Virus record (IMG/VR): IMGVR_UViG_3300020394_000267
Span: 27,070 to 91,069 of that record
Origin: a virus
Direction: 5' to 3' (one strand)
DNA: 64,000 nt
Shown: piece after piece, positions 2,942 to 35,174 of the stretch
Numbering within the stretch: position 1 is the first letter of the stretch
Layout of the letters: every line of letters begins with the position of its first letter
Position numbers and translations under genes: made by a program
The notes under the pieces: generated by a model
What the model was told of the DNA's origin: nothing
What the model saw: only the letters and a program-made list of their open reading frames with translations
Databases searched by the model: none

Positions 2942-5176
2942 ATGTCCAGCAGATTAGACAGAATAATTAGGGAAGTCCTTACAGAAGGGCAAAGTACCCT
3001 ATTAGAAGCGGACTTGACAAGGAGACTTGACATGCTCGTGAGACAGGGATTAATGCCTGCCTCTCAATTACCTATACTAAAACGCGGTTTAGAGAAATTC
3101 AACCAAGGTAAAGTGCCTGCACCGAATGAAAGAAACGCGGTTAATACACTACTAAACGGTATGATGTTCATCGTATTAGGTGACGATACTGTATTCAATA
3201 GAGCAAGAACTTCTGTACAAAAGAACAGATATCAGACAGAAGAATTTGATGACCTTGAAGAGAAGATGACTGTGGATATTGACCATAGTGGTGAGAAGGA
3301 CGATGCTGCTAAAAAACATGGTATCACATTAAAAAGAACTGGTTCTACTACAGTCAATGCTACAGGGTCACGCAAGAACCTCAAAAAATATCTAACGCAC
3401 CATCATGGCGGAGACAAGAAAGATGCCGCTGATGTACACAAGAGTGTATTCAAAGAAGAACAAGTCGCAATGAGGATGGCGATTGAAGAAGATAAAGATT
3501 GGCCTAGACCTTTTACAAAAGCTGAAAGGTCAGAATTTATGCGTCCCAAAGAAAAGTCTGCTGAAGAAACCAAAGCGATAAAAGACCGCATGAAGGCAAA
3601 GAATAAATCAAGACCTAAAGGTGTACAAGAAAGCGAAGAATTAGATGAAATATCTGATAAGATGAAACTCAATTACATTAAGAAAGCTAACAAAGAAATC
3701 ACAAAGTCGGAAAAAGAGAGAGATGAGATTCAGAAGAGCGATAAGCCAGGTCATGACCAGTCATATAAAAGCATTATGGATTTAAAACATAAATCTGATG
3801 CAGATAAAAGAAGAAAGGGTGTTAGACAAGCTAGAAGTACATTGCAAAAAGAAGAACAACTAGACGAGTATGGTGCAATGTCAAGTGATAAGGCATCACA
3901 CGATACTGGTGGATTCAGAATTTCAAATAAAGACGCCTCTGCTGCTAAAGAAAGAGCAAAGAAAAAGAGTGCAGAGAAACGCGACAAGTTATCAAATATA
4001 ATCAAAAAGAACACCATCCAGAAAGGGCCTATGAAAGGTTACATGACGGATGAAGTTAATCAAGGGGAAGAAAAAATGGATATTGATTGGACAAAAAATC
4101 CTTTCGCTCAAGCAAAAGCCATGGCTGAAGGAAAATTTAAAGACATGGCTACTAGGCAGTCCGAAGAGGAAAGACTCAAGGCAGAGAAAAAAGCTAAGAG
4201 ACTTTCTGATAAAAAGAGTAAAGAAGAAAAAGAGACTGACCCAGGCTTAGACGAGGGTGTTGCTAAAAATACTCTTGATATCTATCAGGCACACGCGGAT
4301 AAGAAAAAGAAAGATAGTCTCAAAGTGGGTCAGAAGGCACCCGATGGGGCGTCAAAAGCCAATGAACGCCAGTTGAGTTCAATCGCAAAACAAATGAACA
4401 AGGCAGTTGATAAAGCAAACGCTAAACTCAAGGAAGAACTAGAAGGACTACCAGAGTTAGATGCGATGGACTATGAGATGTGGGAAGCATATCAGTCCCC
4501 TACAAAGAACAACTACACCGACAAGGAACTTAGACAGGCGAAAGGTATCGCATTTGATAAGAGATACAAAGGTGGTAACATGACAGGTGCTGCTAAGGCA
4601 ATGGAGAAAATCAAGAAAGGTTTATCCGACCATCCTGTTGCTTCTAAAGCATTAAGAAAAGCAAACGAAGAGAACATGAAAGATGAGTGGTTAGACTTGT
4701 TTGATGGTGTAGAAGATTTCAATCAAATTATTGAGATGTCTTATAAAGAAAAGTTTAATTCTATGTTGAAGAAGACAGGTAAAACTCTTGCTGGTATGTC
4801 ACCAGAAGAGAAGAAGAAATTCTTTAACAAAGTAGATGGCGCTCACGATGCAGTAAACGAAAACAAAGCATTTAGAGATGCTGCTAGGGATTACGCGAAA
4901 GATGATAAGAAAGGACTTGCACCTACTAAGAAGGATGCACCTAAAGTATCAGACGCGAAGAACGCCAAAGAAATCGAACATATCGTACCTCAAATGAGGA
5001 AAGCTATTTCAGTAGGTAAGAAAGTGCAATTTAAAGATGGGAAACATCACACAGTTTCCAAGGCACACGCCGCTAAATTCTTGAATAAATACATGAGTGG
5101 CAAACCCGCTGATAAAGAAAAAATGCAATCGCATGCCCACGCAAGTCATAAGAACTTCATGGATCATGCAAAATAG
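2942..5176 (+). CDS. Large Lys-rich phage protein, probable late/virion protein
   Basis: 744 residues with a GGAG ribosome site 5-8 bases upstream. The N-terminal ~100 residues form an ordered helical module (MSSRLDRIIREVLTEG, DMLVRQGLMPASQLPILKR), after which the protein becomes a long, highly charged Lys/Glu-rich sequence with repeated ...EELDEI... and ...EQLDEYG... segments. These resemble the short acidic tails and linkers repeated in marine T4-like phage head proteins. No enzyme motif is visible. A late-type promoter lies directly upstream. It may be an internal head, scaffold or DNA-packaging accessory protein; this is an inference from composition and position. Confidence 0.8.
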   Translation: MSSRLDRIIREVLTEGQSTLLEADLTRRLDMLVRQGLMPASQLPILKRGLEKFNQGKVPAPNERNAVNTLLNGMMFIVLGDDTVFNRARTSVQKNRYQTEEFDDLEEKMTVDIDHSGEKDDAAKKHGITLKRTGSTTVNATGSRKNLKKYLTHHHGGDKKDAADVHKSVFKEEQVAMRMAIEEDKDWPRPFTKAERSEFMRPKEKSAEETKAIKDRMKAKNKSRPKGVQESEELDEISDKMKLNYIKKANKEITKSEKERDEIQKSDKPGHDQSYKSIMDLKHKSDADKRRKGVRQARSTLQKEEQLDEYGAMSSDKASHDTGGFRISNKDASAAKERAKKKSAEKRDKLSNIIKKNTIQKGPMKGYMTDEVNQGEEKMDIDWTKNPFAQAKAMAEGKFKDMATRQSEEERLKAEKKAKRLSDKKSKEEKETDPGLDEGVAKNTLDIYQAHADKKKKDSLKVGQKAPDGASKANERQLSSIAKQMNKAVDKANAKLKEELEGLPELDAMDYEMWEAYQSPTKNNYTDKELRQAKGIAFDKRYKGGNMTGAAKAMEKIKKGLSDHPVASKALRKANEENMKDEWLDLFDGVEDFNQIIEMSYKEKFNSMLKKTGKTLAGMSPEEKKKFFNKVDGAHDAVNENKAFRDAARDYAKDDKKGLAPTKKDAPKVSDAKNAKEIEHIVPQMRKAISVGKKVQFKDGKHHTVSKAHAAKFLNKYMSGKPADKEKMQSHAHASHKNFMDHAK

Positions 5177-29821: not shown

Positions 29822-29850
29822 TTGACAACTGCTGATCTAATGTGTATAAT
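29822..29850 (+). promoter_or_regulatory. Perfect sigma70 promoter
   Basis: CGCTTGACA with TTGACA at 29822-29827, exactly 17 bases, TATAAT at 29845-29850. It is the first of two tandem promoters ahead of the structured non-coding region. The 100 bases between the promoters hold no convincing gene (only a five-codon ATG frame at 29875). Confidence 0.85.
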
Positions 29851-29927
29851 AGGGTGTCGCCTTTAAGAAGAGATATGGCTGCTGCTAAGTGATTGATATA
29901 TAAGGGAAATAAAAGATAAAATAATAC

Positions 29928-29956
29928 TTGACAACTGGTCTCATATGTGAGATCAT
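29928..29956 (+). promoter_or_regulatory. Second tandem promoter, GATCAT class
   Basis: TTGACA at 29928-29933, 17 bases, GATCAT at 29951-29956 with TG at the extended -10. Expected start at about 29963, at the upstream edge of the structured non-coding stretch. The palindrome seen at 7712 and 31898 is only partial here. Confidence 0.75.
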
Positions 29957-29962
29957 TATACC

Positions 29963-30420
29963 ATACTGAGAGATGAGGAGATTATATAGTGTTGTGACAA
30001 TAATTTAAACCCCAGTTAAACCGCACCATCTCACCGTGGTTGAGGTTCAAGGAAGAGTGCTATGGGGTCGGAAATGAATCACGGTGCCGAGTCGCAAAGG
30101 TGGCATGACCACGCTCCGATGAGGTAATGACAGGCAGGGCTGGCTGCCATGAACAAGGTGGAGAGACAACTACTAAAGGAGAGTCCCCAGTAGTGGCAAT
30201 GCACAAAGCAGTACCATGAAAAGGACAGGGCGGATGTCAAAGGGTGAGACCCGGCCGCTAACAGGGTTGTGCCTCAATACACACGCGCTCCCCCACGGTT
30301 AGGGGAGCATCACCCAGCAGCAGAGGGGTCAGGCGGGCCTATGCTTTGGGATCGAGGTGGTCGCCCTTACAAGTGCATCTGGCATCCCCCCATATGCATT
30401 ACTAAAAAAAGTTTTTGCCC
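29963..30420 (+). ncRNA. Putative large structured non-coding RNA 1
   Basis: About 460 bases with no credible reading frame, GC-richer than the neighbouring genes and preceded by two good promoters. Perfect helices seen by eye: CACCGTG 30032-30038 with CACGGTG 30080-30086; GGCAG 30133-30137 with CTGCC 30144-30148; ACTACT 30169-30174 with AGTAGT 30189-30194; and a 7-base stem GCTCCCC 30287-30293 with GGGGAGC 30302-30308 closing an 8-base loop. A terminal hairpin-like AGTGCAT/ATGCATTACT pair (30371-30404) precedes an A/T run. It shares a core with the RNA at 33.9-34.2 kb. No tRNA, tmRNA, RNase P or group I intron signature is visible. Large phage RNAs such as GOLLD are a possible class to test. 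The 3' end is approximate. Confidence 0.6.
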
Positions 30421-30462
30421 ACCCACAGAAACCGCCACAGAATTTTTTTCGGGATATAAATT

Positions 30463-33490: not shown

Positions 33491-33816
33491 TGGGTATGCT
33501 GAATATGGGCGGTAGTCTGAGATATGACTACTCTGGTCGTAAGCGTAAGGCGTATAAGAAGAACAATCCGCCCAAGCGTAAGACTACATTTGAGTCTAAA
33601 CCCTTGCGAGTGCCTCATGACCGTCTTGAAGAGATGAATGAGCACAGGCGTAAGTATCCATCACTTAATTCTTTTGCCCCGACAAGTGGCACTAAGGATG
33701 ATAACTGGATACGCGAGAAGCAAGAAATTTCATCTGGTTACACGGTTGCACCCGCCTACAATAAAGGTGCATATCAAGTAATCGGTAAATCCAATATAAA
33801 AGATATTGGAAAATAA
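33490..33816 (+). CDS. Basic hypothetical phage protein
   Basis: 108 residues, ATG overlapping the previous TAA. N-terminal half is Lys/Arg/Tyr rich (YDYSGRKRKAYKKNNPPKRK), then a Pro-rich segment and VAPAYNKGAYQVIG. Probably flexible and nucleic-acid binding. Last gene before the promoter of the second structured RNA. Confidence 0.65.
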   Translation: MGMLNMGGSLRYDYSGRKRKAYKKNNPPKRKTTFESKPLRVPHDRLEEMNEHRRKYPSLNSFAPTSGTKDDNWIREKQEISSGYTVAPAYNKGAYQVIGKSNIKDIGK

Positions 33817-33829
33817 TTGAAAAAAACGC

Positions 33830-33858
33830 TTGACATTTGCAAAAAAGATCAGTATAAT
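33830..33858 (+). promoter_or_regulatory. Perfect sigma70 promoter for non-coding RNA 2
   Basis: CGCTTGACA with TTGACA at 33830-33835, 17 bases, TATAAT at 33853-33858; predicted start at about 33865. A T4-late-type TATAAATA lies at 33871-33878, so the same RNA could also be transcribed late. Confidence 0.85.
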
Positions 33859-33864
33859 GGTTGA

Positions 33865-34215
33865 AAGTTGTATAAATAAACATGCGGTGGACGGTATTCG
33901 TACAATCCGTTTCCAACGGACAAGGTTAGGTGAAACTCCTAGACGCCGCTCCAATTTTACAGTTGTAGTCCTAGGCAAAGACTCCATCCTGTCACAAGTT
34001 AAACTGCCTCGACTGAACATTGATAGCCATGTAATGATGCATCAAAACAGTAGGTCGTTAAACCATAAGGAGCCCTGAGCAGTGGCGCAAGGTAACACAC
34101 AGACCGAAAAAGGCTCAGTCCATCGACTACATGAGGGCAGTGATGGCCTCGCATAACACAGATGGACAAAGAGAGCTGGGCATCTCTCTTCATCCTAAAC
34201 TGCCCACTACTAGAA
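33865..34215 (+). ncRNA. Putative structured non-coding RNA 2
   Basis: About 350 bases without a credible gene, between a perfect promoter and the lipoprotein gene. Helices by eye: TCCGTT 33906-33911 with AACGGA 33915-33920; CTGAGC 34075-34080 with GCTCAG 34113-34118, enclosed by GTA/GTCG (34050-34057, one bulge) with CGACTAC 34124-34130; GGGCAGT 34135-34141 with ACTGCCC 34199-34205, enclosing AAGAGAG 34169-34175 with CTCTCTT 34184-34190 (8-base loop). Bases 34067-34115 resemble 30176-30226 of non-coding RNA 1 (AAGGAG, AGTGGC, ACA-CAG-ACC, GAAAA-GG in the same order). Not recognisable as a known RNA class. It could alternatively be a long structured leader of the lipoprotein gene. Confidence 0.6.
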
Positions 34216-34226
34216 GGACAACAACA

Positions 34227-34388
34227 ATGAAGTACTTGAGTATATTAGTTGTTTGTATTATGATTACTGCATGTAGCGGAAGAATAAATTTAATCGCTGA
34301 ATTACCAAAAGACCAAGACCTAGATGTAACAATTAAAACATCCAAGTCTGGTGGTGTGCATAAATCTAATACACCAACAGCAGAATGA
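34227..34388 (+). CDS. Small phage lipoprotein
   Basis: 53 residues with AAGGA upstream. MKYLSILVVCIMITACSG is a lipoprotein signal peptide with a lipobox (MITAC), giving a mature lipidated Cys and ~38 residues of soluble, charged peptide. Longer upstream frames would run through the structured RNA and are not needed. Phage lipoproteins often act in superinfection exclusion or receptor blocking, or in lysis (Rz1-like, but this one is not Pro-rich). Specific function unknown. Confidence 0.75.
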   Translation: MKYLSILVVCIMITACSGRINLIAELPKDQDLDVTIKTSKSGGVHKSNTPTAE

Positions 34389-34792: not shown

Positions 34793-34832
34793 GCTTTAAC
34801 ATTCGTTAGTTAATTATTCACAATGGAATAAA

Positions 34833-34859
34833 GGGCAACTCAAGGTTGCCCTTTTTTTT
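34833..34859 (+). terminator. Rho-independent terminator
   Basis: GGGCAAC 34833-34839 pairs with GTTGCCC 34845-34851 across a TCAAG loop, followed by eight T. It stops plus-strand transcription exactly where the convergent minus-strand block ends (stop codon at 34863). Confidence 0.92.
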
Positions 34860-35033: not shown

Positions 35034-35174
35034 TTTGACACCTCCTGTATTAAGAGATGCGTTCCTTCGGCGGAATTGCCTACTTCCGTCCACCGCTACA
35101 TTTAGGGTGGATGAACGAATGTAGTCTTTTCACCCATGACTTATGGAGTACCGATTGGTACAGTATTATTTATC
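35034..35174 (-). promoter_or_regulatory. Structured 140-base leader upstream of the DUF4278-like gene
   Basis: Plus-strand hairpin-capable pairs: CTACATT 35095-35101 with AATGTAG at ~35117-35123; CCAT/ATGG at 35133-35145; GTACC-GATT-GGTAC at ~35148-35161; CGGAA/TTCCG near 35070-35088. The minus strand reads GCGGTGGACGG at 35096-35086, the same 11 bases as non-coding RNA 2 at 33884-33894. A near-consensus late motif (GATAAATA) lies at the upstream end. Could be a cis-regulatory RNA or a third small structured RNA. Confidence 0.45.

Follow-up and report, generated by a model that had tools for sequence, protein, structure and literature searches.

A noncanonical tRNA-Gly(UCC)-like RNA joined to a pseudoknotted segment in a probable T4-like phage

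Recognition of tRNA-Gly by bacterial GlyRS depends on the identity elements U73, G1-C72, C2-G71, C35 and C36 (PMC9976931). The same tRNA is a target of toxins, some of them from antiphage systems, which recognise it by its acceptor stem (PMC11559606; PMC9976931). The toxSAS FaRel2 reads G1-C72, C2-G71 and G4-C69 of the acceptor, and also a purine 5-pyrimidine 68 pair (PMC11559606), and TacT reads U73 and G71 (PMC9976931). Phages use tRNAs (tRNA-Tyr, tRNA-Lys) to counter tRNA-targeting defence; these counter-defence tRNAs are canonical and decoding, and a function in translation was presumed necessary by the authors (PMC11555353, PMC10264068). A glycine tRNA can also serve outside translation, as the non-proteinogenic tRNA-Gly of Staphylococcus does in peptidoglycan synthesis (PMC4052509, PMC9976931). 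Fem ligases take their glycine from this tRNA.

The RNA described here combines features of these systems. Like the staphylococcal tRNA-Gly, in which glycine acceptance is kept, it has no GG18-19 and shows altered T-arm features (PMC4052509, PMC9976931). However, it is phage-borne, its D arm is far smaller and its T loop is of the type UGNNACU, and the likeness is one of features that does not imply homology. With the counter-defence phage tRNAs it shares a strong promoter and an occurrence either singly in the genome or within tRNA arrays, whereas those tRNAs are canonical and decoding and the fold found here is reduced. The stable RNAs C and D of T4 (rnaC and rnaD) are likewise small RNAs in a T4-like tRNA cluster, and rnaC ends in a tRNA-like T arm, but this is a canonical GGUUCGAAUCC T arm. 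In rnaC (L318 609-747) the canonical T arm (CCGGGTTCGAATCCCGG) lies at the end. As relatives, rnaC and rnaD were rejected for having no sequence relation to the RNA, and the blastn matches to a T2 'tRNA-Tyr' and to SonariX for their normal tRNA-Tyr T arms. Similar to tmRNA, a tRNA-like part is joined to pseudoknots; in contrast to tmRNA, the RNA has a contiguous 5' tRNA-Gly-like cloverleaf, G3-C70 instead of G3-U70, and no tag frame. No tmRNA was called by ARAGORN or Rfam in the window, by which we mean the whole stretch of 64,000 nucleotides that was analysed.

The viral contig is 91 kb long, and the window covers its bases 27070-91069. Its source is most likely a T4-like phage, because the T4 major capsid protein Gp23 is encoded on the contigs of the close relatives L003 and L005. 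The RNA is carried by four close relatives (L003-L006, 85-93% over the region) and by one distant phage, L130, which matches with 189 bits. Among GenBank phages, neither blastn with the region or a wider 24 kb nor tblastn with two neighbouring genes gave any relatives, and the protein located before the RNA in L130 led to no further ones. Indels of 1-2 nt occur in the RNA stretch, and no reading frame is conserved across the relatives. The folding energy of the single sequence was not significant (z -1.3; 9 of 100 shuffles were equally good), so the argument for structure rests on comparison. At both gathering and permissive thresholds Rfam gave no family for the region; among the kinds of RNA weighed, tmRNA, riboswitch, group I intron, RNase P RNA and 6S RNA all lacked an Rfam match.

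Upstream of the RNA lies a sigma-70-type promoter TTGACA-17-TATAAT (33830-33858, plus strand), which agrees with the consensus at 12 of 12 positions, as the preliminary description had it, and is kept in L003-L006. In L130 the RNA is likewise preceded by a perfect promoter of its own. The 64-kb window holds three perfect promoters of this kind, and eight matches with at most one mismatch, compared with 1.1 expected. The late-type motif reported at 33871 is also present: the T4-type late promoter-like TATAAATA occupies 33871-33878 on the plus strand and is found at the same spot in all RNA-carrying relatives, distant L130 included, while the window as a whole is not enriched in it (7 seen, 5.7 expected). 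Late transcription from this motif is possible, as a T4-type start about 6 nt downstream would fall near 33884, at G1 of the tRNA-like domain in the window.

The earlier proposal of a structured RNA after a strong promoter held, but not the fold drawn for it, which missed the best-supported domain, the tRNA-like one at 33884-33953 (plus strand). In this domain the acceptor stem (33884-33890/33943-33949; GCGGTGG and ACGCCGC) has six pairs and a G7.A66 mismatch. It is followed by a mini D arm of 3 bp (33891-33893/33899-33901; ACG and CGT around GTATT), the linker ACA, and an anticodon arm (33905-33909/33917-33921; ATCCG and CGGAC) whose loop UUUCCAA at 33910-33916 (TTTCCAA in the DNA) carries UCC at 33912-33914. 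A variable region of 4 nt, AAGG (33922-33925), leads to the T arm (33926-33930/33938-33942; TTAGG and CCTAG), and the 3' end is formed by U73 (33950) and CCA (33951-33953). The acceptor and the 5-bp T arm with its 7-nt loop thus end exactly at NCCA, and the bacterial glycine identity set is complete by sequence, with G1-C72, C2-G71, U73, C35 and C36 all present. The features of a canonical elongator are missing, since there is no D arm with G18-G19 and the T loop at 33931-33937 is UGAAACU, not the UUCRANY of normal tRNA.

When both strands of the 64 kb were scanned with a fixed template built solely from general tRNA rules, this site was the single match; 20,000 dinucleotide shuffles of the region gave none. 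When the window group was compared together with L130, 96.9% of the cells of the cloverleaf pairs were paired, versus 34-50% when slid by 1-3. The covariation score was 0.365; shuffles gave 0.152 ± 0.052, and of 500 not one scored as high. In these sequences the T stem appears as TAGG/CCTA, AAGG/CCTT, TTGG/CCAA and GAGG/CCTC, and the anticodon stem as TCCG/CGGA and TTCA/TGAA. Therefore, the template scan, the covariation and a covariance model make a noncanonical tRNA-Gly(UCC) fold a well-supported assignment for the first 70 bases, 33884-33953.

Standard tools do not call the domain. ARAGORN found neither tRNA nor tmRNA there, and the Rfam tRNA model RF00005 did not reach its cut-off in the window genome or the relatives, save for the tRNA-Arg of L003, nor did it give a match at E up to 10 within 33780-34260. 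We searched 1.16 Mb of related loci with the covariance model of the window group's tRNA-like domain (R1). Outside its own group, most of the best matches were genuine tRNA genes aligned in full register, the top one a tRNA-Glu at 34.3 bits, followed by tRNA-Glu and tRNA-Arg below 20 bits. In a second locus set, nine of the ten real tRNAs matched were tRNA-Gly. Out of 34 new loci, 31 were recovered by R1 at E of 0.001 or better, and each of the 11 phage records searched contained exactly one copy.

The domain is also found far from the window group. A scan of IMG/VR with the pattern GGTGNNACTCCNNNNNNCCGCTCCA returned 39 stretches, most with the same RNA fold, and from this one scan about 30 further viral contigs carry the tRNA-Gly-like RNA. 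Because the pattern itself prescribes U73-CCA, T pairs 52-53 on both sides and acceptor pairs 1-4 on their 3' side, the constancy of these positions is not independent evidence. Across 20 distinct members pairing is complete (100%) at acceptor pairs 1-6 and at T-stem pairs 49-53, and the acceptor and T-stem positions left free by the pattern show 4-6 pair types each. The anticodon loop contains CC in 21 of 22 members (UCC, GCC, CCC or ACC); because the pattern left the anticodon free, the glycine character was obtained independently of it. The D arm of the family is mostly a 3-4 bp hairpin immediately 3' of nucleotide 7, the T loop is UGNNACU, and a G.A at 7-66 occurs in half of the members, the window among them. 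Most members are missed by ARAGORN, and only L290 passes RF00005 among those checked (39.5 bits); L290, L315 and L316 resemble transitional forms on the way to normal tRNA-Gly. In the 596 bacterial genomes sampled from two phyla (398 + 198) the same pattern had no match, and a genome_contigs scan with the window-type pattern gave about 100 chance matches, none tRNA-like. The same T arm and CCGCTCCA end were seen with a long variable arm or an enlarged anticodon-side arm in L288 (2243-2267), L296 (540-564) and L306 (6935-6959), which are possibly further relatives. No neighbouring protein recurs across unrelated members.

The RNA might be an ordinary phage tRNA-Gly, degenerate yet competent in translation, that adds to the decoding capacity of the host by reading GGA/GGG. 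Phage tRNAs are common, the window loop UUUCCAA has U33 and UCC, and the window genome contains no other tRNA and uses GGA for 30% of its Gly codons; in some members, the window among them, the 7-nt anticodon loop with U33 could decode. However, other members have a 6-nt anticodon loop or no U33, and almost all have lost the D-loop GG and the TPsiC elbow contacts. In addition, relatives have canonical tRNA-Gly genes that decode the same or overlapping codons: tRNA-Gly(GCC) adjoins the tRNA-like gene on its 3' side in L283, L292 and L311, and the tRNA arrays of L299, L302, L305 and L312 also hold canonical tRNA-Gly TCC and GCC. As canonical tRNA-Gly sits beside the tRNA-like gene in these phages, codon supply is unlikely, and so, in our view, is the ordinary tRNA as a whole. 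The missing normal D arm and the altered T loop would also fit a decaying tRNA pseudogene or an attachment-site remnant. We consider this highly improbable, as compensatory stem changes and glycine identity are retained across divergent phages, the relatives are T4-like with the Gp23 capsid protein, and the RNA has its own promoter.

The segment 3' of the tRNA-like domain, 33954-34206, appears to fold into two pseudoknots and intervening helices, all on the plus strand. The part 33954-34057 holds pseudoknot A, which consists of stems 33967-33970/33980-33983 and 33973-33977/34005-34009 with an outer helix 33959-33962/33989-33992; its helices are invariant or compatible across the close relatives, and stem 2 reads AGGCA/TGCCT in the window and AGACA/TGTCT in L130. 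It is followed by a hairpin CGAC/GTCG (34010-34013/34054-34057), which is CGCC/GGCG in L130. The helix CTGAGC/GCTCAG (34075-34080/34113-34118), for which no equivalent was found in L130, becomes CTGAAC/GTTCAG in L004. The helix TCCATC/GATGGA (34119-34166) has CATCC/GGGTG at the same place in L130, and its inner helix GAGG/CCTC (34133-34136/34147-34150) is changed to GAGA/TCTC in L004. Pseudoknot B (34169-34206) is of the H-type, with AAGAGAG/CTCTCTT (34169-34175/34184-34190) and TGGGCA/TGCCCA (34177-34182/34201-34206), which correspond to AGAGTG/CACTCT and TGGGGC/GCCCCA in L130. Of the four helices named in the preliminary description, two are thus borne out: AAGAGAG/CTCTCTT is maintained by the close relatives and shows covariation against L130, and CTGAGC/GCTCAG covaries in L004. 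The other two are contradicted by the relatives, as GGGCAGT/ACTGCCC has an A.C mismatch in L004 and L006 and is absent in L130, and GTA-GTCG/CGACTAC is confined to the window, with CAGACTA in L003, L004 and L005. We regard the structure of this segment as supported, but less firmly than that of the tRNA-like domain, because the comparisons with L130 were read by eye and chosen post hoc and involve only a handful of distinct sequences.

Among the viral contigs searched, the pseudoknotted segment is carried by the close relatives and L130 only. Against 4227 Rfam families it gave just two opposite-strand chance matches, to human-type families (E 3.5 and 7.1). A pattern for pseudoknot A hit 43 stretches in IMG/VR and was real only at the known loci, a weak match in L143 being dismissed as chance; the segment pattern CCTGA..ACCGAAAA likewise had real matches at known loci only. 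The whole 350 nt might nevertheless be one noncoding RNA, whose tRNA-like 5' module recruits RNase P or GlyRS or protects the end while the pseudoknotted body acts. In the window group and in distant L130 both modules do occur together, in the same order and behind strong promoters. Elsewhere, though, the tRNA-like module is free-standing, followed immediately 3' by a terminator-like hairpin and T run (L284, L295) or by tRNA genes (L283, L287, L292), in L287 lying between tRNA-Arg and tRNA-Leu, and the body is in no other viral contig searched. A single functional RNA is therefore somewhat unlikely.

The genes 3' of the RNA lie on the plus strand. A small lipoprotein gene (34227-34388, 53 aa), with no PHROG or Pfam match, is present in the close relatives only, and a winged helix-turn-helix protein (PF14090; 34502-34792) is encoded by the next gene in every RNA-carrying relative. 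An intrinsic terminator at 34830-34854 would end the presumed transcription unit. The order in the window is promoter, tRNA-like domain, pseudoknotted segment, lipoprotein, winged-helix gene and terminator; in L130 the promoter and both RNA modules are followed by the winged-helix gene, and the lipoprotein gene is missing. Because the first good terminator is only that at 34830-34854, the RNA is probably co-transcribed with the downstream genes in the window. The preliminary description had also considered that the lipoprotein mRNA might have the RNA as its long regulatory 5' leader, and in the close relatives pseudoknot B is followed after 20 nt by the lipoprotein ATG, with AGAAGGA upstream of this codon. 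As the basic function this is unsupported: L130 has both modules without the lipoprotein gene, which makes the RNA independent of that gene, and many phages have the tRNA-like part with no such gene adjoining. A leader role is accordingly improbable.

Several other elements were noted. In L003, alone among the relatives, a canonical tRNA-Arg(TCT) (4228-4304) lies just 5' of the RNA's promoter, at a site that resembles a tRNA locus. Another perfect TTGACA-17-TATAAT promoter in the window, followed by about 600 bases to the next long gene (29822-30460), probably belongs to the first structured RNA candidate; parts of this stretch are conserved in L003, L132, L134, L135 and distant L130 (1565-1647, 82%). 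The third perfect promoter, TTGACATTTGC..., is at the very end of the contig (63956-63984). On the minus strand, an Rfam glutamine riboswitch (RF01739, 60 bits; 35056-35119) precedes a DUF4278 gene.

Taken together, we favour, with modest confidence, the reading that the RNA belongs to a phage-enriched class of noncanonical tRNA-Gly(UCC) that would be charged with glycine by host GlyRS, would be poor at ordinary elongation and would be used outside normal decoding. Charging without good elongation is suggested because the glycine identity elements are kept, the elbow contacts are lost and some relatives are without a normal anticodon loop. In this scheme the strong early promoter would drive the tRNA-like RNA, possibly with a second, late transcription. 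RNase P, trimming at G1, and 3' processing might then free it from the pseudoknotted segment. Host GlyRS would probably charge it with glycine, as the retained identity elements indicate, and the weak elbow and decoding features would keep it from ordinary elongation.

Its most likely use may be to compete for, or substitute at, host factors or defence toxins acting on tRNA-Gly, or to hold glycine for another reaction. A decoy or replacement role against tRNA-targeting defence is plausible, because toxins read the tRNA-Gly acceptor stem and phages use tRNAs against defence. The acceptor features read by FaRel2 and TacT (G1-C72, C2-G71, G4-C69, U73 and G71) are all in the RNA; the purine 5-pyrimidine 68 pair that FaRel2 also wants is not, the window having T5-G68. 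The main alternative to a decoy or replacement would be a glycine donor.

What purpose phage tRNAs serve has been asked for a long time. A tRNA-Gly class that is enriched in phages, retains the features recognised by the synthetase and has shed part of the decoding and elbow machinery would set charging apart from translation, and phage tRNAs are undercounted by standard tRNA finders. The pseudoknotted segment joined to the tRNA-like domain adds a second RNA, one that has no Rfam family. We tentatively propose, with less confidence than for the class itself, that many uncultured T4-like and other phages may use a GlyRS-charged, non-elongating glycine RNA either to counter immunity aimed at tRNA-Gly or as a glycine donor, and that the lineage of the window joined it to a new pseudoknotted RNA. 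The class offers a direct test of non-decoding roles of phage tRNAs, such as counter-defence.
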